Below are positions 35,021 through 45,634 of a DNA stretch of 64,000 nt, piece after piece (positions within the stretch are counted from its first letter, which is position 1; every line of letters begins with the position of its first letter). Source of the DNA: Thalassolituus maritimus (lineage in GTDB: Bacteria > Pseudomonadota > Gammaproteobacteria > Pseudomonadales > Oceanobacteraceae). The DNA lies in assembly GCA_913019975.1 (NCBI GenBank), contig CAJWBH010000004.1, positions 151,623 through 215,622 on the forward strand, written 5' to 3'. The translations under genes were made by a program, and so were the position numbers. The notes under the pieces were generated by a model. The model was not told where the DNA came from, searched no databases, and worked only from the letters and a program-made list of their open reading frames with translations.

Positions 35021-35503
35021 ATGAGTAAAAAGAAAAAAGCCAATAGCGGCTCCTCAACAATCGCGCTGAACAAAAAGGCCAAACACGATTTCTTTCTGGA
35101 AGATAAGCTCGAAGCAGGTCTTGAGCTGGTCGGCTGGGAAGTGAAATCGATTCGTGAAGGCAAAGTTCAGCTGCTGGATTCCTTTATCGAGTTTCATCGT
35201 GGTGAAGCCTGGCTGCATAATGCCCAGATTACACCGATGACTCAGGCATCAACGCACGTTGTTGCTGAACCTCGCCGCCAGCGCAAGTTGCTGCTGCATC
35301 GTCGTGAGATTGAGCGTTACTCACAGAAGGTACAGGCGAAAGGTTATACCTGTGTCTGCACTGCACTCTACTGGAAGGGGCATCACGTCAAAGCCGAGAT
35401 TGCCCTCGCCAAAGGTAAGCAGAGCCATGACAAGCGCAACACGGCCAAAGACCGTGACTGGGCGAAGCAGAAAGAACGCATTATGAAGCACTCAGTGCGC
35501 TGA
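35021..35503 (+). CDS. smpB: SsrA-binding protein SmpB
   Basis: Binds tmRNA and delivers it to stalled ribosomes. The 160-residue protein has [60 protein letters not shown] and the basic C-terminal tail ([20 protein letters not shown]) that mimics an anticodon stem. Immediately upstream of ssrA on the same strand. Confidence 0.97.
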
Positions 35504-35529
35504 CAGCTCACTGCAACCTGTGCTATATT
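35500..35529 (+). promoter_or_regulatory. Predicted ssrA promoter
   Basis: CTGACA (35500-35505), an 18-base spacer and TATATT (35524-35529), overlapping the smpB stop codon and about 97 bases before the mature tmRNA 5' end. Confidence 0.5.
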
Positions 35530-35625
35530 AGCGACTGTTCTGGGGTTGAACTTCCACTAATTAACCCTATCTAAAGAACAAGGATCAGAAATGATCCAGC
35601 TCCTGGCTGAGAGCGACCAGAATTC

Positions 35626-35984
35626 GGGGATGATCTGGATTCGACGTTGATTACAAAGCTATGGGTGCATGCCGAGAGCGTACGACGATCTCGTAAATAA
35701 ACGTTGTACATTTAAATATTCGCAAACGACGAATCTTACGCACTAGCGGCCTAATAGCCCCGCTTACCTCCGAACCCGGGTTCCTGTAACCGGGGGACGA
35801 GGGCGCAGCCCTACAGGATCGTCCGGAGGCTTTGCTGGGAGCCAAAGGACTAAACGTAATCCAGCTCGTTCCGAACGGCCTGTCTCTCGGCCCGTGACGA
35901 ACTAAATCAATAGAGAAGACTAAGCATGTAGATCCTCTAGTGGAGGATTGGCGGACGCGGGTTCAAATCCCGCCATCTCCACCA
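35626..35984 (+). ncRNA. ssrA: tmRNA
   Basis: One-piece transfer-messenger RNA. The 5' end GGGGATGATCTGGATTCGACG pairs with the 3' CATCTCC-ACCA end, giving the Ala-tRNA-like acceptor; the T-arm is GCGGGTTCAAATCCCGC. The tag frame is 35722-35754: GCA resume codon, encoding ANDESYALAA followed by TAA TAG, one residue different from the E. coli tag. Follows smpB and ends at a strong terminator. Confidence 0.97.
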
Positions 35985-35991
35985 AACAAAT

Positions 35992-36028
35992 AAAAAGGCC
36001 CCACCTGTTTTTCAGGTGGGGCCTTTTT
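35992..36028 (+). terminator. Terminator of ssrA
   Basis: Stem AAAAAGGCCCCACCTG/CAGGTGGGGCCTTTTT with a 5-base T loop and following T-run, 8 bases past the tmRNA CCA. Confidence 0.9.
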
Positions 36029-36141
36029 ATTTGTCTGACGATTGTGATTCTGAATCGATCATAGTTCCGGGTTCTTCTGATTGCCTGGAGCAATCAGTAC
36101 CGCCGCAGGCGCCCGAAGGGGCTGGGCCATTGATGGCCCAG

Positions 36142-36258
36142 AGTACAATCCCGCCTCTGTCTCCGGCCGGGCCTTTTTATTTGTCTGAGGATCACAATTC
36201 TAAACTCATCCTATTCCCAATTTCTTCTCGCATAATTGCTCGAAGCAATCACACCGCA
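36142..36258 (+). repeat. Decayed duplicate of the ssrA 3' end and its downstream flank
   Basis: The stretch GTACAATCCCGCC...TCTCC at about 36143-36164 resembles the tmRNA T-loop and acceptor (GTTCAAATCCCGCCATCTCC). It is followed by GGGCCTTTTTATTTGTCTGA, identical to the end of the ssrA terminator flank at 36020-36038, and then by about 70 bases alignable to 36039-36105, including a GCAATCA...ACCGC end. It looks like a degenerate direct repeat, possibly an attachment-site scar. The rest of 36035-36248 holds no recognised gene. Confidence 0.7.
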
Positions 36259-37031
36259 ACCCGCTTATCCCGCGGCGCATACTCAAAAACATCAGAGTAG
36301 CAGTTCGCTTCAGTTAGCCCATACGGTGCCAGCTGATCAATAGTGCCATACACCATTCGAGGCGACCCACAGAGGTAAGCGACTGTATTATCTGAGACGT
36401 ATTGATCTTCCTGGATGACTTCGAAAATAAATCCCGTGCGCCCGTTCCACTCTGGATGTTCAGATTCGAGTATGGGTGTAAAACTGAGGTTTTCGTCCTG
36501 AGTTTCCCATTCCCGGAATTCTTCGAGCAGGTAGAAGTCATCAATATTTTTATTTGACCAATACAGTCTGACGTCTGCACTCGGATCTCTTGCTACTATT
36601 TCTTCGGCCAGACATTTTATTTTTGATATCCCCGACCCTGCCGCGACCAGCAGATGGGGTTGTTTCAGGTTGCTTTGTAAAAAAGCGCGCCCCATTGGCA
36701 GTGCCACGTTCAGGTGTTCCTGGCGGCCACAAATTTGCACAAGGCGACGTAACAGCTTTTCGGTGAACAGACTGCCGTTCTGTATGAAGAGTTGTAACCT
36801 GCCCGGTTGTTTACTGTCAGGTCGATTAGCGACCGAGTAAAACAAAGAGTGAGCCTGCCCATCAATATCGATATTCAACTGTAAATAGTGGCCAGCAATA
36901 TAGCGTAGGGCAGCATCTGTCGACGATTCCAGCTCCACCTGGAATGTGCCCCGGTTGAGGAAGCGTACACTCGCTACCCGGCACTCATGGGAATATCGTT
37001 CTGGTATGTCTACTGCAGCCACTTCACTCAT
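36249..37031 (-). CDS. NAD(P)H-flavin reductase-like protein (Fre/LuxG-type)
   Basis: A 260-residue ferredoxin-reductase-fold protein without an iron-sulfur motif. The FAD-binding beta-barrel (residues about 10-115) has LFYSVANRPDSKQPGRLQLF in place of the usual RxYS motif; the NAD(P)-binding half has LLVAAGSGISKIKCLAEEIV, VRLYWSNKNIDDFYLLEEF, AYLCGSPRMVY and the C-terminal YSDVFEYAPR typical of Fre/LuxG. It is divergent from metR and near mesX-mesD, so supply of reduced flavin to the oxygen-dependent MesX protein is plausible but inferred. Confidence 0.8.
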   Translation of the reverse strand: MSEVAAVDIPERYSHECRVASVRFLNRGTFQVELESSTDAALRYIAGHYLQLNIDIDGQAHSLFYSVANRPDSKQPGRLQLFIQNGSLFTEKLLRRLVQICGRQEHLNVALPMGRAFLQSNLKQPHLLVAAGSGISKIKCLAEEIVARDPSADVRLYWSNKNIDDFYLLEEFREWETQDENLSFTPILESEHPEWNGRTGFIFEVIQEDQYVSDNTVAYLCGSPRMVYGTIDQLAPYGLTEANCYSDVFEYAPRDKRVAV

Positions 37032-37150
37032 TATTCATCCACTCACGTTGTTAGGGCCTGTTAACACTAATTAAACAGGCCCTCGGTGCCCGCTTCCGGA
37101 CTCTGACCTCTGATGGTGGATAAGCTTAGAAAACTCGTTCAATGAATAAA

Positions 37151-37170
37151 AATGGTATATTTTCACCATT
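37151..37170. promoter_or_regulatory. Inverted repeat in the divergent metR/flavin reductase promoter region
   Basis: AATGGT-(8)-ACCATT within an AT-rich stretch 35 bases before metR; a candidate operator for MetR or another regulator. It does not match the MetR consensus TGAA-N5-TTCA. Confidence 0.35.
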
Positions 37171-37204
37171 CAATTACTTTTCTTCATCATTAGATGGATA
37201 AGCC

Positions 37205-38104
37205 ATGATCGAACGTAGTCATCTCAGAATCATTCAGGCCGTCGAAGAGCATGGCTCACTGACGGCCGCTGCCAGAGAGCTGTGCGTCACTCAGTCCGCA
37301 CTCAGTCATACGGTGCGCAAACTCGAAGACAACCTGGGAACGCCTGTCTGGCTTCGCGAGGGTCGCAGTCTCAGACTCACTCAGGCAGGCCGGTACTTGC
37401 TCAACATCGCCAACCGGGTGCTGCCTCTGCTCTTTCATGCTGAAGATAAACTGAAGCAGATGGCTATGGGGGAGCGTGGCACTCTGCGTATCGGGATGGA
37501 ATGTCACCCATGCTACCAGTGGCTCCTGAAGGTAGTGTCTCCGTTTCTGGACACCTGGCCTGATGTGGATGTCGACGTTAAACAGAAATTTCAGTTCGGT
37601 GGTGTCGGTGCCCTGCTTGACTATGAAATTGATCTGCTGGTCACTCCTGACCCGTTTTACAAAAGTAACCTGAGCTTTACCCCAGTGTTTGATTACGAAC
37701 AGGTACTAGTGGTGCCCAAAGATCATACTCTCACGAATCAGCCATTCGCGGAGCCAGAAGACTTGCGCAATGAGGTCTTGCTGACCTACCCCGTCGCCAC
37801 CGACCGTCTGGATATCTACTCACAGTTTCTGACACCTGCGGGAGTAGTCCCCAAGCAACATAAGACCAGTGAGACCACTGAGATCATGCTGCAAATGGTC
37901 GCTTGTCAGCGCGGTGTTGCTGCCTTGCCTCGCTGGTTAGCAGAAGAATATTGCCAGCGACTACCACTCGATGTTGTTCGCCTGGGAGAACAGGGTATTG
38001 CGAAGCAGATCTTCCTGGGGACGCGGGAAGGCGACGAGGAGATCGGTTATCTGAAGGCCTTTATTGATCTCGCGAAAGACTACGAGCACCCCTTTTCTGC
38101 CTGA
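37205..38104 (+). CDS. metR: LysR-family regulator MetR
   Basis: Homocysteine-responsive activator of methionine genes. The 299-residue protein has the N-terminal helix-turn-helix (SLTAAARELCVTQSALSHTVRKLE) and a MetR-like effector domain with LRIGMECHPCYQWLLKVV and LDYEIDLLVTPDP, FTPVFDYEQVLVVPKDH, close in pattern to E. coli MetR (IAIECHSCIQWL). Full length. It is divergent from a flavin reductase gene and upstream of mesX-mesD, which it probably controls. Confidence 0.88.
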   Translation: MIERSHLRIIQAVEEHGSLTAAARELCVTQSALSHTVRKLEDNLGTPVWLREGRSLRLTQAGRYLLNIANRVLPLLFHAEDKLKQMAMGERGTLRIGMECHPCYQWLLKVVSPFLDTWPDVDVDVKQKFQFGGVGALLDYEIDLLVTPDPFYKSNLSFTPVFDYEQVLVVPKDHTLTNQPFAEPEDLRNEVLLTYPVATDRLDIYSQFLTPAGVVPKQHKTSETTEIMLQMVACQRGVAALPRWLAEEYCQRLPLDVVRLGEQGIAKQIFLGTREGDEEIGYLKAFIDLAKDYEHPFSA

Positions 38105-38204
38105 GCCAGTGGAGGATTTACCCTACTTAGGTGTACGGCCATTTTCAGAGCCATGCTGGGTGGGGAGCCCTCGTCGCCCACCAACCCATTACAATCCCTC
38201 ATGC

Positions 38205-38224
38205 ATTGATTATATAAAATCAAT
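38205..38224. promoter_or_regulatory. AT-rich inverted repeat upstream of mesX
   Basis: ATTGATT-ATATAA-AATCAAT in the 238-base metR-mesX interval. Candidate operator or promoter-overlapping site. The same interval also has a GGTGGG/CCCACC hairpin at about 38159-38182. No cobalamin or SAM riboswitch consensus was recognised. Confidence 0.35.
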
Positions 38225-38342
38225 TTTACTCATATATAAAAAAGCGTAAAACGTGCTCTCAGATCGTATCCGAGACGGTATTGAGTCAGTTTCGGAACGA
38301 CGACATCGAACACTGAACCTGGGAAACGGGAGATACGCAGTC

Positions 38343-39317
38343 ATGAGTAACGGTTTTTCATACACGATCAAGCGTGTGATCTTTGATGAAGATTACACGC
38401 CCTCCGATGCCACGCGCGTCACCACTAACTTCGCCAACCTTGCCCGGGGTGAGCAACGCGAAGCAAATCTGCGCAGCGCCTTGCGAATGATTGACCGCCG
38501 CTTTAATGCTCTGGCTCCGTGGGATAACTCACGTGGCGACCGTTACTCGCTTGAGCTTGAAATTATTTCTGTCGATATTGATGTCGAGGGCAATGGCCAC
38601 GGCTTCCCCTCTATTGAGATACTCAAAACCAATATTATCGATCATAAGACCAATAAGCGTATCGAAGGGATCGTAGGTAATAACTTTTCGTCGTACGTGC
38701 GCGACTATGACTTCAGCGTACTGCTTCGTGAATACAATGCTGGCCAGAAAAAATTCAGTATTCCCGAAGACTTTGGCGAACTGCACGGCAAGCTATTTAA
38801 AGACTTTCTTAAGTCCGACACGTACAAAGAGAACTTCAGCAAATTACCCGTTGTCTGCCTCAGTGTTTCAGACACCAAAACGTATCACCGCACTGAAAAC
38901 CAGCACCCGGTTCTTGGGGTGGAATACACTCCGAATGAGACCTCGCTGACAGAACAGTACTTCCGAAAAATGGGCTTCGACGTCCGCTATTTTATGCCGC
39001 CAGACAGTGTCGCTCCACTGGCATTTTACTTTATCGGTGACCTGCTTACGGACTACACGAATCTGGAACTGATCAGCACCATCAGCACCATGGAAACCTT
39101 TCAGAAGATTTATCGGCCTGAAATTTACAATGCTAATTCCGCCGCCGGGTACGAGTATCAACCTGATCTGACACACAGTGATCACTCACTTACTCAGGTT
39201 GTGTATGACCGCGACGAACGCAGCCAGCTGGCAGTTAAACAGGGCAAGTTCGCCGAAGAACACTTCATTAAGCCGTACCAGAAAATTCTTGAAAAATGGT
39301 CAGCCGATTTCGCCTGA
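38343..39317 (+). CDS. mesX: MesX (DUF1852), partner of core methionine synthase MesD
   Basis: A 324-residue DUF1852 protein, starting MSNGFSYTIKRVIFDEDYTPS, with NFANLARGEQREANLRSALR, YSLELEIISVDIDVEGNGHG and LGVEYTPNETSLTEQYFRKM as recognisable blocks. DUF1852 proteins are known to be needed, with oxygen, for the folate- and cobalamin-independent methionine synthase MesD, but their chemistry is not settled. ATG at 38343 has GGGAGA upstream and is preferred to an in-frame start 30 codons earlier. Thirty bases separate it from mesD, indicating an operon. Confidence 0.88.
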   Translation: MSNGFSYTIKRVIFDEDYTPSDATRVTTNFANLARGEQREANLRSALRMIDRRFNALAPWDNSRGDRYSLELEIISVDIDVEGNGHGFPSIEILKTNIIDHKTNKRIEGIVGNNFSSYVRDYDFSVLLREYNAGQKKFSIPEDFGELHGKLFKDFLKSDTYKENFSKLPVVCLSVSDTKTYHRTENQHPVLGVEYTPNETSLTEQYFRKMGFDVRYFMPPDSVAPLAFYFIGDLLTDYTNLELISTISTMETFQKIYRPEIYNANSAAGYEYQPDLTHSDHSLTQVVYDRDERSQLAVKQGKFAEEHFIKPYQKILEKWSADFA

Positions 39318-39347
39318 ACTATTAACTGTATTCAGATAGAGCTAACA

Positions 39348-40376
39348 ATGAAAAAGCTACTTCCAACGTCAACGGCAGGCAGCCTGCCTAAACCCACATG
39401 GCTAGCAGAACCCGAGAAACTCTGGTCGCCATGGAAACTCGAAGGTAAAGCGCTGCTCGATGGGAAGCAGGATGCCCTACGCGTCTCGCTTCAGGAACAA
39501 CTGGCCGCAGGCATCGATATCGTCAGTGATGGTGAACAGACCCGCCAACACTTTGTGACCACCTTTATCGAAAATCTGAGCGGCGTCGATTTTGAGAATA
39601 AGAAAACCGTGCGTATCCGCGACCGTTACGACGCCAATGTACCTGGGGTGATTGGTCCGGTGAGTCGTCAGAAATCGGTGTTTGTTGAAGATGCTAAGTT
39701 TCTGCGCGGTCAGACAAGCCAGCCGATTAAGTGGGCTCTACCCGGGCCTATGACTATGGTTGATACCCTCTACGATGATTACTATCAGGATCGTAAGACA
39801 CTCGCATTCGAGCTCGCCAAGGCTCTGAATGAGGAGGCTCGTGAGTTACAGGCGGCCGGCGTTGATATTATTCAGTTTGATGAGCCAGCCTTTAACGTAT
39901 TCCTCGATGAGGTTAATGGCTGGGGCCTCGAAGCGCTGGAAATAGCGACGGAGGGTCTGACCTGTGAGACCGCTGTGCATATCTGTTATGGCTATGGCAT
40001 TAAAGCAAATACCGACTGGAAAAAGACACTCGGTGCTGAGTGGCGTCACTACGAAGCAACGTTTCCTGCGATTCAGAAATCCAGCATTAATATTGTTTCA
40101 CTTGAATGCCATAACGGCCGCGTCCCGATGGAAGTTCTGACTCTACTTCACGGTAAGAAGATTATGGTGGGCGCCATCGACGTAGCAACCGATACGATTG
40201 AAACGCCAGAAGAAGTCGCGGCGACGCTTCGTGAAGCACTGAAATACGCCGATGCCGATAAGATTTATCCTTGCACAAACTGTGGTATGGCCCCTCTTTC
40301 ACGGGAGACTGCACGTCAGAAGTTGCAGGCTCTGGCGGCTGGCGCAGAGATCATTCGCAAAGAACTGGCGGATTAA
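39348..40376 (+). CDS. mesD: Core methionine synthase MesD
   Basis: Transfers a methyl group to homocysteine without the N-terminal folate domain of MetE. The 342-residue TIM barrel corresponds to the MetE C-terminal half. Likely zinc ligands are visible: His211 and Cys213 (VHICYGYG), Glu253 (SLECHNGR) and Cys312 (CTNCGMAPL). The DIIQFDEPAFN motif matches MetE. Adjacent mesX and metR identify it as the MesD family. The methyl donor of this family is unknown. Ends 2 bases before the next gene. Confidence 0.88.
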   Translation: MKKLLPTSTAGSLPKPTWLAEPEKLWSPWKLEGKALLDGKQDALRVSLQEQLAAGIDIVSDGEQTRQHFVTTFIENLSGVDFENKKTVRIRDRYDANVPGVIGPVSRQKSVFVEDAKFLRGQTSQPIKWALPGPMTMVDTLYDDYYQDRKTLAFELAKALNEEARELQAAGVDIIQFDEPAFNVFLDEVNGWGLEALEIATEGLTCETAVHICYGYGIKANTDWKKTLGAEWRHYEATFPAIQKSSINIVSLECHNGRVPMEVLTLLHGKKIMVGAIDVATDTIETPEEVAATLREALKYADADKIYPCTNCGMAPLSRETARQKLQALAAGAEIIRKELAD

Positions 40377-40378
40377 AC

Positions 40379-41209
40379 ATGGATATTATTGAATTTATGT
40401 CGGGTCACCTGATGACCATTCTGGCATTGGTAGTGACAGGGGTATTCGCTGGAATTCTTGCTGGGCTGCTGGGTGTCGGCGGCGGTATTGTGGTTGTGCC
40501 TGTGCTGTATTTCCTGTTTCAGGGATTTGGCGTTTCGGCCGACTCAGCCATGTTAGTCGCGACAGCCACTTCACTCGCAACGATCATTCCGACCTCCATC
40601 AGTTCAATCCGCTCACATCACCGGCTTGGCAATGTAGATCTTGATCTGTTTAAACGCTGGAGTCTGTTTATCCTGACGGGTGTTCTGGCAGGAAGCTGGC
40701 TGGTAACTCGCGCAGACGGCGACTGGCTGACCCTCCTGTTCGGTATCATTGCAACACTTGCGGCACTGAACATGTTGTTCAGAGCAGGAAAGCCCGCATT
40801 GTTCCCGGGATTACCCAATCCTGGCGGCCAGGCCGTCATGGGATCGTCAATCGGTTTTTTCAGTGCGATGGTCGGTATAGGTGGGGGCACGCTTTCTGTA
40901 CCACTGCTTACCCTGTTTAACTATCCTGCGCATAAAGCCGTGGGAACGGCAGCGGCAATCGGGCTAATTATTGCGTTGCCAGGCGCACTGGTGATGCTTT
41001 TACTAGGTACGACCCCAGAAGATGCACCCGTTGGCACCTTTGGTTTAGTCAACCTGATCGGCTTTATCTGCATAGTGCCGTTGACGGTACTGTTCGCACC
41101 CGTGGGCGCCCGGCTTGCCTCATCACTTGATGCGGGATTGCTCAAAAAAATCTTTGCCATTGTTCTGCTGTTTACCGGGTTACGTATGTTGGTACAACTC
41201 TCGCTGTAG
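40379..41209 (+). CDS. TauE/SafE family membrane permease
   Basis: A 276-residue integral membrane protein with about 8 hydrophobic segments and the two TauE/SafE glycine motifs: GILAGLLGVGGGIVVVPVLY near the N-terminus and SAMVGIGGGTLSVPLL at mid-length. The family exports or imports sulfur-containing or organic anions such as sulfite or sulfoacetate. It starts 2 bases after mesD, so it belongs to the operon and may move a sulfur compound linked to methionine metabolism; the substrate is unknown. Confidence 0.85.
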   Translation: MDIIEFMSGHLMTILALVVTGVFAGILAGLLGVGGGIVVVPVLYFLFQGFGVSADSAMLVATATSLATIIPTSISSIRSHHRLGNVDLDLFKRWSLFILTGVLAGSWLVTRADGDWLTLLFGIIATLAALNMLFRAGKPALFPGLPNPGGQAVMGSSIGFFSAMVGIGGGTLSVPLLTLFNYPAHKAVGTAAAIGLIIALPGALVMLLLGTTPEDAPVGTFGLVNLIGFICIVPLTVLFAPVGARLASSLDAGLLKKIFAIVLLFTGLRMLVQLSL

Positions 41210-41614: not shown

Positions 41615-42447
41615 GTGCCAGTTCAGAACATCACCAGGGGAATACGTTACACAGCACACCAGTGTGCTGTGACGCTTATCGCCTGTCTTTTATTGATGTT
41701 TACTCTTCAACTTAACGCGAGTGAAGCTCGGAGCCTGGACCTGCAACAGCTGACAGACGAACTCGCTCTCTCGAACTACGTAGTGCAGGTTCAGCCCGAC
41801 GAAGGAGAAGACAACCTCTCAGAAATCATGAGCCTGCCGGATAACCGCTGGTCTGGTGTTCCTCAAACCAGCCGAAGCCTGGGGCGCGACTATGGTACCA
41901 CCTGGTTCCGCGTTGATCTTACGGGCACGAATAATCTGAAGGCAGACAGCGCTTACTACTCGATTACCCTCACTATGATTTCATCGATGTCTTTCTGGTA
42001 TCTGAATCGGGTGTGGTACAGAGCTTTTATACCGGCGACCAACGTGGCTTTCACTCCCGCCCTGTCGACCAACGAACGTTTCTGTTTCCTCTTGAAAAGC
42101 TGAATCAGTCGACAGACGCTAAGGTGTATTTCCGCATCAGCACTCCAGGTCCACTACTGATCCCTTTCAGTCTGGTGACCGGTGCTGAGAGCAGACTCCA
42201 GGATCGTAATACATCGATGGCCCTTGGTATTTACTTCGGTATTCTGCTCATCATGTTCGCCTACAATGCCTTTATTTCAGGCTCTCTGCGCGATACAGCT
42301 TACATCTATTATCTCGTGTATATGGCGAGTGTCGGGCTACACCAGTTAACTCTTCAGGGGCTTGGGTATCAGTACTTCTGGCCAGACACGTCTCTGTTCG
42401 ACAATAACTTTGCAGTCGCACTGAGTAGCGCGCTGGTGCAAGGCACT
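41615..42447 (+). pseudogene. Frameshifted, truncated 7TM-DISM sensor protein gene
   Basis: From the GTG at 41615 (AGGAG 9 bases upstream), a signal-anchor and extracellular 7TMR-DISMED2-like domain are read. Similarity to the next gene then jumps from reading frame 2 to frame 1 between about 41935 and 41962 (..GTNNLKAD | LLLDYPHYDFIDVFLV..). Frame 1 continues through VDQRTFLFPLEKL, ISTPGPLLIPFSL and the first helices (MALGIYFGILLIMFAYNAF) to ALVQGTA at about 42447, where homology stops in mid-domain. The remaining helices and any output domain are missing. Either a decayed gene or a sequencing indel plus a real deletion. Confidence 0.8.
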
Positions 42448-42595
42448 GCTGTCTCTGACGATTCTGATTGCCGCTCTTCTGGCGCACCGGGCTCACGCCA
42501 TCGAAACCGTCCATTTCACCGGTGACAAAGTCAGTCTCTTACCGCTACTCGAGTTCGTATCAGAGCGGAACGGAGAAACGCTGGACGAAATACTC

Positions 42596-44248
42596 GTGCG
42601 TCCGGAAGAAGACTGGCACCACCGCCAGAACATTAACAACAACCTCGGGCAAACCAGCCAGCCGGTCTGGGCGAGAGTACGCCTTGCCGGCGTGTCTGAA
42701 GCCTTCGGGCAACCCATTGTGCGCCTCAACTACCCACATCATGACTACGTCGACTTCTACCTTTTTGAGCGTGGAAGAATGATCCGTCACTTCTCAGCAG
42801 GTGACCAGCTGCCATTTGATAGTCGCCCTATTGATCAGCGAACCTTCTGGTTCCCGCTTGACGATGCGAGCGCCGATGAGCAGGAAATCTACATCCGGAT
42901 ATCTACACCCGGCCCGCTGCTGATGCCATTGGATCTGATGAACTACAAGGAAGCCGCTGAAGAAGAAAAACTGCTGTACCTATGGGCAGGCGCCTTCCTC
43001 GGAATTATCGCCATCATGGCGCTCTATAACCTGTTTCTGTACTTCTCGCTGACGGAAAGCTCGTACATCCTCTATGTACTTTACCTCCTCAGTGCCGGCG
43101 TTATGCAGGCCACCATGTTTGGCTTTGGTGAGCAGTATTTCTGGGGGGACAGACCCGGCGTCAATAACCAAGTGATCGCGTTCCTCGCGCCGTTTGTTCA
43201 ACTTACTGCGATGGCCTTTGTTCTTAAGTTTATTGATCTGAAGAACTTCGGTTCCGTTCTGGATCGCTCCGTCGCCTACCTGATGTTATTCACTCTGATC
43301 GTTATGTCGATTGCGAGCTTCACCGTGCCCTACAGCCTGATTGTGAAGCTGGGTCACTCAATCGCCTTGTTCGGTGTTGTCTGTGCATTCTACATCGGTA
43401 TCAAAGGTTGGATCATGGGTATGAAGTCGGCCCGTCTGTTCACAATCGCCTGGTTTGCACACCTGGTCTTTATTGGTTGGTACCTGTTGGATATGACCGG
43501 GAAGATTCCAGCAACAGAGCTGGGTAACCATGCCTTTGCGATCGGCTTTATTGCGGAACTGTCACTCCTCTCAATCGCCTTTGCCGATAAGATGAATCAG
43601 GAGAAAGAGCTGAGGATTAACTCTCAGACCAAGCTACTCGATATGCAGGTCGCGATGAATCAGGAGTTAGACAACAAGGTAAAAGAGAGAACATCTGCCC
43701 TTGAAAAGGCCAACCGCCGCCTTGAAGAGTTGAGCGTCACCGATGGCCTGACCAAACTCTTTAACCGCAGATACTTCGATCAGGTTTTCCGCGACCACTA
43801 TGAGCAATCATACAAAGATCAACATCCGATCAGTGTCATGATGGTCGACATCGATTTCTTCAAAAAACTGAACGATAACTACGGTCACGCGTTTGGTGAC
43901 CTGTGTCTGGTGCGTGCGGCCCAACTTATCCGCAAGGTGGTCACTATGCCGGGAGCATTTGCAGCCCGCTACGGCGGTGAAGAGTTCGTTGTCGTCCTGC
44001 CTAAGACAACCGAAGAGCGCGCTGCACAGGTTGGCGAGATGCTCAGGTCAGCATTTGAAAAAACAACCGTGACGCAAGGTAATCAGAGTAAGAATATGAC
44101 GATCAGTATCGGCGTTGCATGCACGATTCCATCGCAACCCGGACTGGAAGAAAAATTGTTGAGCGTCGCGGACAGCTGTCTGTATCAGTCTAAAGAGAAC
44201 GGTCGGAATCAGGTCACCCGCTCAGAGCAGCTGAACGAGGCGGGCTGA
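42596..44248 (+). CDS. 7TM-DISM membrane diguanylate cyclase (5' end damaged)
   Basis: Synthesises cyclic di-GMP. It has an extracellular 7TMR-DISMED2 domain (VDFYLFERGRMIRHFSAGDQ, ISTPGPLLMPLDL), seven hydrophobic helices (about residues 120-330), a coiled coil (MNQELDNKVKERTSALEKAN) and a GGDEF domain with active motif RYGGEEFVVVLP. The first start-like codon is the GTG at 42596, but the same frame is open back to 42425 and encodes a signal peptide (KALLSLTILIAALLAHRAHA, from 42440) and the start of the sensor domain, with no good start codon. The original start appears lost at the junction with the truncated copy, so expression is doubtful. Confidence 0.82.
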   Translation: MRPEEDWHHRQNINNNLGQTSQPVWARVRLAGVSEAFGQPIVRLNYPHHDYVDFYLFERGRMIRHFSAGDQLPFDSRPIDQRTFWFPLDDASADEQEIYIRISTPGPLLMPLDLMNYKEAAEEEKLLYLWAGAFLGIIAIMALYNLFLYFSLTESSYILYVLYLLSAGVMQATMFGFGEQYFWGDRPGVNNQVIAFLAPFVQLTAMAFVLKFIDLKNFGSVLDRSVAYLMLFTLIVMSIASFTVPYSLIVKLGHSIALFGVVCAFYIGIKGWIMGMKSARLFTIAWFAHLVFIGWYLLDMTGKIPATELGNHAFAIGFIAELSLLSIAFADKMNQEKELRINSQTKLLDMQVAMNQELDNKVKERTSALEKANRRLEELSVTDGLTKLFNRRYFDQVFRDHYEQSYKDQHPISVMMVDIDFFKKLNDNYGHAFGDLCLVRAAQLIRKVVTMPGAFAARYGGEEFVVVLPKTTEERAAQVGEMLRSAFEKTTVTQGNQSKNMTISIGVACTIPSQPGLEEKLLSVADSCLYQSKENGRNQVTRSEQLNEAG

Positions 44249-44257
44249 CACTCAATA

Positions 44258-45634
44258 TTAATAGACATCCCGACGGTAGCGTCCCTCTGCCGTCAAAGCT
44301 TCTAGTTTTTCGCTACCCAGAATACTTCCAAGCTGGTGCTCCAGATCCTGAGCCATGCCATCACGACTGCCGCATACAAGGATCGTCGCCCCGGCATTAA
44401 TCCAACGTTTGAGGCGATCACTGTGTTCGGAAACAACATCCTGAACATATCCTCTGCTCGCTTCACCGGTTACTGAGGCCAGTTCCAGCGAGTCAGCGCG
44501 GGAGTAACTGCGATTCAGATACGTCAGGTGCTCTGAGTCATACCATTCTGTCAGTTGTTTATCCCAGTGGCGGTCGAACAGTGGAGAGCGCTCTCCGAAG
44601 ATTAACCAGTTATCATGCTGCCCAGACATATCTCTGACTTTCAAGTGAGCCCTGAGTCCGGCAAGCCCGGAACCATTGCCAATTAATATCAGTTTCTCTG
44701 CATCCGCCGAGCAGTGAAAAGACGGATTACAACGCACAGAAGCGCCAACAGTGTCATTCACCATCGCCTGATGACACAACCAGCCAGACCCTAGCCCAGG
44801 CGAGCCATCAGGATGGTTCTGCTCCCGGATCAAGAGTGTCAGTTCAGATTCCTCCGGAATACTGGCTATACTGTATTCGCGAATTTGCCCCTGCAAATGA
44901 AGCTGAATGATATCACCCGCCTGCCAGCTGAACTGATTTCTGACATCCAGTGTGACTTCGTATATCGGCGCACCGGGACTTCCGGAGTTAAGGTGACGAC
45001 GTCCCTTAAAACGCAAAGGATATTGAGGATTGACTGGCGCTTTATCCGAAAATTCAATCGAATTAAGTTGATCAGGATGAATCACGCCAGCGTCTGCGAG
45101 CTGAGTAAACCAGGACGCAATCGTCTCAGGATCATTACGATCCACGGCCACCAGCGGCGCCAGCACCTGAGCGTCGCGCTCAAGCAAAACCGTATTTATA
45201 TCGTATGAAAATCCACAGAAATGCTCATAGGTTGTATCTCCCAATCCGAGAATTGAGAAGCCCAGCTCAGGATATATCGCCAATGTTTTTTTCAACGAAG
45301 GAATAAAGAAGCGACCATTGTCCGGCGCATCCCCTTCTCCGTAGGTACTCGCAATCACAAAAAGAGAGCGACATTGACTCAGGCGATCTGGCGTCACCTG
45401 ATTAAGAGGCTGATGAAGTACTTTAGCTCCCTGACTTCTGAGAATATCGACCAGTTGCAGTGAAAGTGCCTCGGCAGAGCCACTCTCACTGGCAAAAGCA
45501 ACGACAGTTCGGGCATCGGAATGCTGCCTTGCTTCGATACGTCGGGCGATCACAGTCCGATAGCACCAGACTGTGAAAGCAACCCAGGCCAGAGTGAGCA
45601 CTCCAGCCTGAATATAAGGAGCAACCGTCAACAT
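44258..45634 (-). CDS. Membrane-anchored flavodoxin/FNR reductase (CysJ/P450-reductase-like)
   Basis: A 458-residue diflavin reductase. One N-terminal membrane helix (about residues 8-26) is followed by a flavodoxin domain (VVAFASESGSAEALSLQLVD, ASTYGEGDAPDNGRFFIPSL, ILGLGDTTYEHFCGF), then FAD-binding (REYSIASIPEE) and NADPH-binding (LILIGNGSGLAGLRAHLKV, ending RYRRDVY as in CysJ-type enzymes). It would carry electrons from NADPH through FAD and FMN to a membrane or periplasmic acceptor. Last gene of the PepSY-DUF2271-DUF4198 operon; a role in ferric-siderophore reduction is inferred. Confidence 0.85.
   Translation of the reverse strand: MLTVAPYIQAGVLTLAWVAFTVWCYRTVIARRIEARQHSDARTVVAFASESGSAEALSLQLVDILRSQGAKVLHQPLNQVTPDRLSQCRSLFVIASTYGEGDAPDNGRFFIPSLKKTLAIYPELGFSILGLGDTTYEHFCGFSYDINTVLLERDAQVLAPLVAVDRNDPETIASWFTQLADAGVIHPDQLNSIEFSDKAPVNPQYPLRFKGRRHLNSGSPGAPIYEVTLDVRNQFSWQAGDIIQLHLQGQIREYSIASIPEESELTLLIREQNHPDGSPGLGSGWLCHQAMVNDTVGASVRCNPSFHCSADAEKLILIGNGSGLAGLRAHLKVRDMSGQHDNWLIFGERSPLFDRHWDKQLTEWYDSEHLTYLNRSYSRADSLELASVTGEASRGYVQDVVSEHSDRLKRWINAGATILVCGSRDGMAQDLEHQLGSILGSEKLEALTAEGRYRRDVY

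Follow-up and report, generated by a model that had tools for sequence, protein, structure and literature searches.

We analysed a 64,000-nucleotide stretch of Thalassolituus maritimus DNA (assembly GCA_913019975.1, contig CAJWBH010000004.1, positions 151,623 to 215,622; hereafter the window) and focused on a cluster of five genes around mesX and mesD, which almost certainly encodes the MesX/MesD methionine synthase system. An earlier note, made from the letters of the DNA, had described a flavin reductase gene on the minus strand and genes for a MetR-like regulator, MesX, MesD and a TauE/SafE permease on the plus strand. All five genes were found at the predicted positions and strands and matched the expected families:

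36249 to 37031, minus strand: Fre/LuxG-like NAD(P)H:flavin reductase, divergent from metR (PF00175, 64 bits; without a 2Fe-2S domain).
37032 to 37204, unstranded: divergent promoter region between the reductase gene and metR, with an operator-like box ATGAATAAAAATGGTATATTTTCA followed by TTCAT, from an alignment of seven sequences.
37205 to 38104, plus strand: LysR-type regulator, nearest to MetR (PF00126 and PF03466).
38105 to 38342, plus strand: mesX leader, with a copy of the motif WTTTTAYTCAT, ATTTTACTCAT, at 38223-38233.
38343 to 39317, plus strand: mesX (DUF1852), 324 amino acids, putative oxygen-using partner of MesD (PF08908, 592 bits over a cut-off of 25).
39348 to 40376, plus strand: mesD, core methionine synthase (NF006589, 643.5 bits; cut-off 392); its zinc ligands are H211, C213, E253 and C312.
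40379 to 41209, plus strand: TauE/SafE family permease (PF01925, 171.6 bits; cut-off 32.6).

The genes are separated by 173 bases (reductase to metR), 238 bases (metR to mesX), 30 bases (mesX to mesD) and 2 bases (mesD to tauE). The mesX start is most likely ATG 38343, rather than the first GTG of the open reading frame (ORF) at 38253, because the Pfam match begins at this ATG and GGGAGA stands ahead of it; tauE starts at ATG 40379, two bases past the mesD stop. The window reductase (260 amino acids) has the flavin reductase 1QFJ as its closest solved relative (E 1.2e-19). It passed PF00175, fell just under the cut-off of PF00970 (20.4 against 21.1) and gave no match to a ferredoxin domain. 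Its scores were below the equivalog cut-offs of Fre (PRK08051, 134 against 230 bits) and LuxG (102.7 against 340 bits), and by the equivalog test it would be classed as Fre-like, not as a Fre orthologue. The regulator is called MetR-like because MetR (PRK15421) was its best hit among 53 NCBIfam matches yet lay under the equivalog cut-off (221 against 382 bits). MesD has PF01717 as its sole Pfam domain and MesD 3RPD as its closest solved protein (E 1.7e-183). The four zinc ligands, already picked out by the earlier note, were present and are kept, in the order listed above, in 140, 140, 139 and 140 of 140 aligned MesD proteins.

MesD and MesX were named by Price, Deutschbauer and Arkin in 2021, who reported that MesD requires MesX and oxygen but not MetF or B12, that the system occurs across several phyla, and that its methyl donor is an open question (PMC7857596). 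They also remarked on nearby flavin reductases, predicted a flavin cofactor, and found that mesX and mesD from Sphingomonas were by themselves enough to rescue E. coli on M9 glucose, a minimal medium (PMC7857596). TauE and the MetR regulator do not occur in the main text of that paper, and no later MesX biochemistry was found among the literature matches listed, whose coverage leaves out most subscription-journal papers and preprints. A 2026 study of Acinetobacter baumannii showed that B12 lowered mesX (ABUW_3198) by log2 8.3 and the flavin reductase ABUW_3196, two locus tags away, by 2.5, while sfnG, msuE, ssuD and tauD, genes of sulfur acquisition, rose as mesX fell (PMC12892962). Another report describes two isolates carrying MesD that are able to evade nitrous oxide, an inactivator of MetH (PMC13059711).

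To survey mesX neighbourhoods, we gathered 80 loci from named organisms, 30 short and 60 longer other loci (the window, L185, among the 60) and 14 plasmid loci. From 185 loci, 32 under 4,200 bases were dropped, leaving 153, and removal of 10 MesX-sequence duplicates left 143 distinct loci. This set leans to Gammaproteobacteria near the window, and percentages in it are not natural frequencies. It includes no locus known to be from Bacteroidota; Actinomycetota are represented by two plasmids (L112, L121) and Verrucomicrobiota by the Rubritalea locus L073. In another class of the window's phylum, that of genome G277, which is thinly sampled, mesX was found in 3 of 385 genomes. The results showed that mesX is followed directly by mesD on the same strand in 139 of the 143 loci, the window included. 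Among the other four, L168 has mesD 689 bases further on, with msuE between, and three gave no mesD match.

A first search, with the window reductase only, found it in 6 of 111 loci (L001 and L082-L111 among them span just 4 kb or so), and for this reason unrelated replacements were then searched for. A flavin reductase adjoined mesX/mesD in 25 of the 143 loci, the window included, and three unrelated families were represented: PF00175/Fre-like, PF01613 and PF03358. This count excludes FNR-superfamily proteins of at least 300 amino acids (one each in L002, L134, L137, L139 and L185), and family identity was Pfam-checked in 9 of the 24 loci besides the window. The window-type Fre/LuxG-like reductase was present in nine loci, window included, and was always divergent. 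PF01613 reductases were present in nine loci, always on the same strand after mesD, and fell into two subtypes, RutF-like and HsaB-like, that are 24-33% identical. MsuE (PF03358) was present in seven loci, directly before mesX in six and between mesX and mesD in L168. RutF, HsaB and MsuE are the best profile names of the PF01613 and PF03358 members; the RutF and HsaB matches were below their cut-offs, and the L114 MsuE passed its equivalog model (251.8 against 212.5 bits). All three serve as partners of two-component flavin monooxygenases.

The co-occurrence of reductase and mesX, on which the model of the earlier note depended, was borne out: near mesX, 24 of 472 genes encoded a reductase, as against 3 of 1585 genes farther away (odds ratio 28, p 4e-13), in a comparison that treats related loci as independent and leaves out the L114 msuE. 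On the MesX tree, the window-type reductase formed one group, occupying 9 of the 11 rows of a branch with support 98, and L073 and L182 stand in that branch without the gene. The other reductase types are intermingled, and 6 changes among the four labels are required against a minimum of 3, on a quick tree with 62 of 140 inner branches open. Because different reductase families fill the place beside mesX, we read this pattern as selection for reduced flavin and not for one particular reductase. The replacement points to reduced flavin as the probable common need.

The TauE/SafE permease was a commoner neighbour than the reductase, standing beside mesX in 57 of the 143 loci (32 divergent upstream, 25 downstream), and it made up 57 of 630 near genes against 4 of 1427 far genes. 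TauE and a reductase occurred together in 11 loci, about 10 being expected if the two were independent, and neither occurred in 72. In L113 and L160, mesX and mesD are followed directly by a RutF-like reductase gene and then by TauE. TauE may export a by-product or carry the substrate. Other recurrent neighbours, which we take to include diguanylate cyclases, SDR proteins, ABC transporters and VOC proteins, were found in at most eight loci each and were set aside for that reason.

Alignment of the window-type loci revealed a conserved box both in the reductase-metR gap and in the mesX leader. In 52 of 143 loci, the motif WTTTTAYTCAT stood no more than 450 bases ahead of mesX, where about 0.8 would be expected from 21 background matches in 1.69 Mb. 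When the nine loci from which the motif was derived were left out, it was found in 45 of 134, whereas 100 resamples, which were first-order Markov and not exact dinucleotide shuffles, had it in 0.53 on average and in 4 at most. The exact motif also lay within 230 bases upstream of the reductase in seven of the nine window-type loci; in L004 and L005 this is the same gap as the mesX leader. The MetR-like protein is probably the regulator that acts at this putative operator. Among 22 loci scanned, a cobalamin riboswitch immediately preceded mesX, on its own strand, in L115 (Rhizobium), L119 (Paracoccus), L129 and L167, and one lay upstream on the opposite strand in L118 (Acetobacter). L129 and L167 belong to another class of the window's phylum, and all four same-strand loci are outside the window's class. 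No Rfam riboswitch was found in the window, its mesX leader included, and no cobalamin riboswitch in 20 further loci scanned. Control by the operator and control by the riboswitch both fit a B12-sparing backup. The host genome (99.9% complete) contains MetH, one methylenetetrahydrofolate reductase (MTHFR, MetF) and one mesX, and no MetE N-terminal domain was found in it; the cluster is therefore its sole evident B12-free methionine route.

To examine MesX itself, we predicted its structure from alignments (A1, A2) of the window protein with 65 of 66 non-redundant named MesX proteins, L070 being excluded as short at its end. The model had a predicted local distance difference test score (pLDDT) of 85.4 and a predicted template modelling score (pTM) of 0.87. 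Fold searches with it gave no clear match to a known fold, the TIM barrel and acyl-CoA dehydrogenase-like folds of flavin monooxygenases included, and its core appeared weakly GNAT-like. In an alignment of the 143 distinct proteins, 81 positions were invariant.

We give a probability of roughly 0.6 to the following reading as a whole: with reduced flavin and oxygen, MesX would turn a common metabolite into a methyl donor, from which MesD methylates homocysteine; flavin use by MesX and the donor are what we infer here. The cluster would then be a B12-independent, oxygen-dependent backup for the last step of methionine synthesis. MesD would hold homocysteine as a zinc thiolate, and MesX would make the methyl group available, acting as the oxygenase partner in a two-component flavin system. 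A separate reductase would supply the reduced flavin, Fre/LuxG-like here and elsewhere RutF-like, HsaB-like, MsuE or an unlinked enzyme. MesX would let this flavin react with oxygen and with a metabolite that all bacteria have, giving a product with an electrophilic methyl group. Homocysteine is the signal of MetR, and upon its build-up the MetR-like regulator would turn on mesX and the reductase together, as a cobalamin riboswitch would do elsewhere. The earlier note had proposed much the same reaction scheme, which the enrichment of reductases beside mesX supports, although its core was largely already published (PMC7857596).

Several observations weigh against this reading. No reductase of the three families, by the profiles of those families only, was found in cis in 118 of the 143 loci, including every named Vibrio, Pseudoalteromonas and Colwellia locus in the set. 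Either a general cellular reductase serves in these loci or the flavin idea is wrong. E. coli possesses flavin reductases of its own, and since the mesX/mesD pair worked there, a general reductase must have served in those experiments if flavin is needed. The enrichment of reductases ignores the relatedness of loci, the exact motif was not found before the reductase in two of the nine window-type loci (L012, L176), and it was found before mesX in none of the seven MsuE loci. Pfam and fold searches with MesX also revealed neither a fold nor a sequence signature recognised for flavin binding or for oxygenases. Finally, oxygen dependence has been demonstrated in E. coli cells only, and its authors allow a respiratory-chain or peroxide explanation (PMC7857596). 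One claim of the earlier note fell with these counts, namely that the reductase is built in: as a fixed component it is ruled out by the 118 loci, and the window type is limited to the one nine-locus group on the MesX tree.

Four other explanations were weighed. The first holds that MesX is a metal-dependent (non-haem iron) oxygenase and that neighbouring reductases reduce its iron or a ferredoxin-like partner. The superfamily of the window reductase does include proteins such as MmoC and BenC, which transfer electrons within oxygenase systems, and a site of two histidines and one carboxylate could be formed in MesX from H188 and E194, which are invariant, and H148, kept in 143 of 144 aligned rows. 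However, the reductases that replace the window type (RutF-like, HsaB-like and MsuE) are named after flavin reductases and not iron reductases, the window reductase lacks a 2Fe-2S domain, and only one histidine of MesX is strictly invariant. We regard an iron enzyme as unlikely.

In the second explanation, the reductase and the permease are ordinary neighbours with no role in methionine synthesis, reductase genes being mobile and common. This would account for the loci without a reductase and for the 86 of 143 without TauE, and mesX and mesD alone suffice in E. coli (PMC7857596). Against it stand the strong enrichment of both families right beside mesX, the PF01613 and MsuE genes placed on the same strand next to mesX or mesD, and the operator common to mesX and the reductase. 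The A. baumannii flavin reductase beside mesX also responds to B12 (PMC12892962). Chance neighbourhood is, in our judgement, distinctly unlikely.

In the third explanation, MesX removes the methyl group from a methylated sulfur compound by means of oxygen and reduced flavin, and TauE exports the leftover sulfite or sulfinate. TauE is the commonest counted family beside mesX after mesD, and MsuE is normally the flavin mononucleotide reductase of methanesulfonate or dimethyl sulfone use. Many members of the TauE family, however, carry other or unknown cargoes, and TauE was found in none of the seven MsuE loci. The A. baumannii response to B12, with sulfur-acquisition genes rising as mesX falls, looks as if the loss of MesX had reduced the sulfur supply (PMC12892962), but it could also reflect greater sulfur demand once MetH runs. 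In addition, rescue of E. coli took place in M9 glucose, where no methylated sulfur compound was supplied (PMC7857596). A sulfur substrate therefore appears improbable, but the A. baumannii data and the TauE link make it worth a test.

In the fourth explanation, MesX draws on the folate pool (5,10-methylene-tetrahydrofolate, for instance) for a one-carbon unit by reduced-flavin chemistry, for which TrmFO and ThyX are models; flavin would be the electron donor, and the need for oxygen would be indirect. An MTHFR-like protein with a PF12225 C-terminal domain does lie beside mesX in L152, L153 and L170 and about 4 kb away in L113; its domains were checked in L153 and L170, the L152 gene is split into two ORFs, and the order in L170 is mesX, mesD, a PF01613 reductase and then this gene. 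We rejected a route through this protein and hold folate chemistry in general to be improbable, as the association is local to four loci without a genome-wide link (2 of 44 mesX genomes against 16 of 354 others), MetF is dispensable (PMC7857596), and the strict need for oxygen would be left unexplained.

Within the preferred reading of MesX as a reduced-flavin oxygenase, a more specific mechanism can be drawn, which we offer as a long shot. MesX might be a new structural class of such oxygenase with a GNAT-like core of the acyl-CoA-binding type, in which a flavin peroxide attacks a central metabolite in Baeyer-Villiger fashion, at an acetyl or a 2-oxo acid group (acetyl-CoA or pyruvate). The methyl group would move to oxygen or to a MesX side chain, and MesD would then pass it to homocysteine. 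If this is true, methionine would owe its methyl group to the methyl carbon of acetate or pyruvate and not to one-carbon metabolism.

Further observations concern the distribution of mesX and the surroundings of the cluster. Of 72,556 plasmid records, 209 carry mesX, among them 71 from Pantoea, 28 from Acinetobacter, 21 from Agrobacterium and 15 from Acetobacter; 34 of the 209 are predicted to be conjugative, and some are megabase-sized. PHROG 30831 matches MesX over its full length, and two 'phage' records with mesX were found. The one of these that was examined proved to be an Acinetobacter contig with ordinary bacterial genes in the 19 kb around mesX, and on this one record a phage home for mesX was set aside. 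L168, in which msuE separates a divergent mesX from mesD, comes from a genome with a second, broken mesX copy at another place (G082:C1:2175963-2176446). A QueH-like gene lies near the mes genes in L113 (by annotation) and in L168 (by Pfam).

Just upstream of the cluster in the window are smpB and ssrA (tmRNA), at 35021-35984. The ssrA gene is less than 0.8 kb from the reductase gene in five of the nine window-type loci, window included, and 3.2 kb from it in L003, a proximity that presumably reflects old synteny or a shared insertion point. An imperfect 79-base direct repeat (72%; 36000-36078 and 36150-36228) lies between ssrA and the reductase gene and includes part of a terminator-like hairpin 3' of ssrA. 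Downstream of the cluster, three ORFs in different frames (41615-42103, 42013-42525 and 42596-44248) have similar sensor-like segments in common, and the C-terminal part of the last is presumably a GGDEF-like domain. These ORFs may represent a decayed duplicate preceding an intact gene. A 458-amino-acid flavodoxin/FNR-type flavoprotein, which we take to be CysJ-like, is encoded on the minus strand at 44258-45634, 3 kb beyond the cluster, and a relative of 458 amino acids is similarly placed in L002.

As far as literature searches show, it is new that reductase families replace one another, that TauE has the stronger link, that mesX and the reductase have an operator in common, that some loci carry riboswitches, and that no fold can be recognised in MesX. 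The presence of three unrelated reductase families beside mesX leads to the specific prediction that MesX needs reduced flavin and that any flavin reductase serves. Since no oxygenase fold can be recognised in it, MesX may represent a new enzyme class; a second clue, to the by-product or substrate, comes from TauE.

Compared with known systems, the mes loci resemble two-component flavin monooxygenases in that a separate flavin reductase gene adjoins a putative oxygenase gene and related reductases recur; such pairs are RutA/RutF, MsuD or SfnG with MsuE, and HsaA/HsaB. Unlike these oxygenases, MesX gave no significant Pfam match beyond its own family and no clear fold match. MesD resembles MetE in its PF01717 catalytic domain and in its His, Cys, Glu and Cys zinc ligands (alignment to 1U1H), but it lacks the N-terminal folate domain, and MesX and oxygen replace 5-methyl-tetrahydrofolate (PMC7857596). 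MesA, MesB and MesC are, like MesD, stand-alone catalytic domains, but their hosts are anaerobes and they are thought to work with corrinoid proteins (PMC7857596). The published MesD/MesX system and the window have in common the zinc ligands, the PF01717 catalytic domain and the absence of a folate-binding domain (PMC7857596). Acinetobacter baylyi (ACIAD3523/3524) and Sphingomonas koreensis (Ga0059261_2929/2928) have, like the window, adjacent mesX and mesD genes with a flavin reductase nearby (PMC7857596). The window reductase is Fre/LuxG-like and divergent, whereas an A. baumannii locus (L079) instead has a RutF-like reductase after mesD, and the window differs from the published system by its additional MetR-like regulator and TauE permease.

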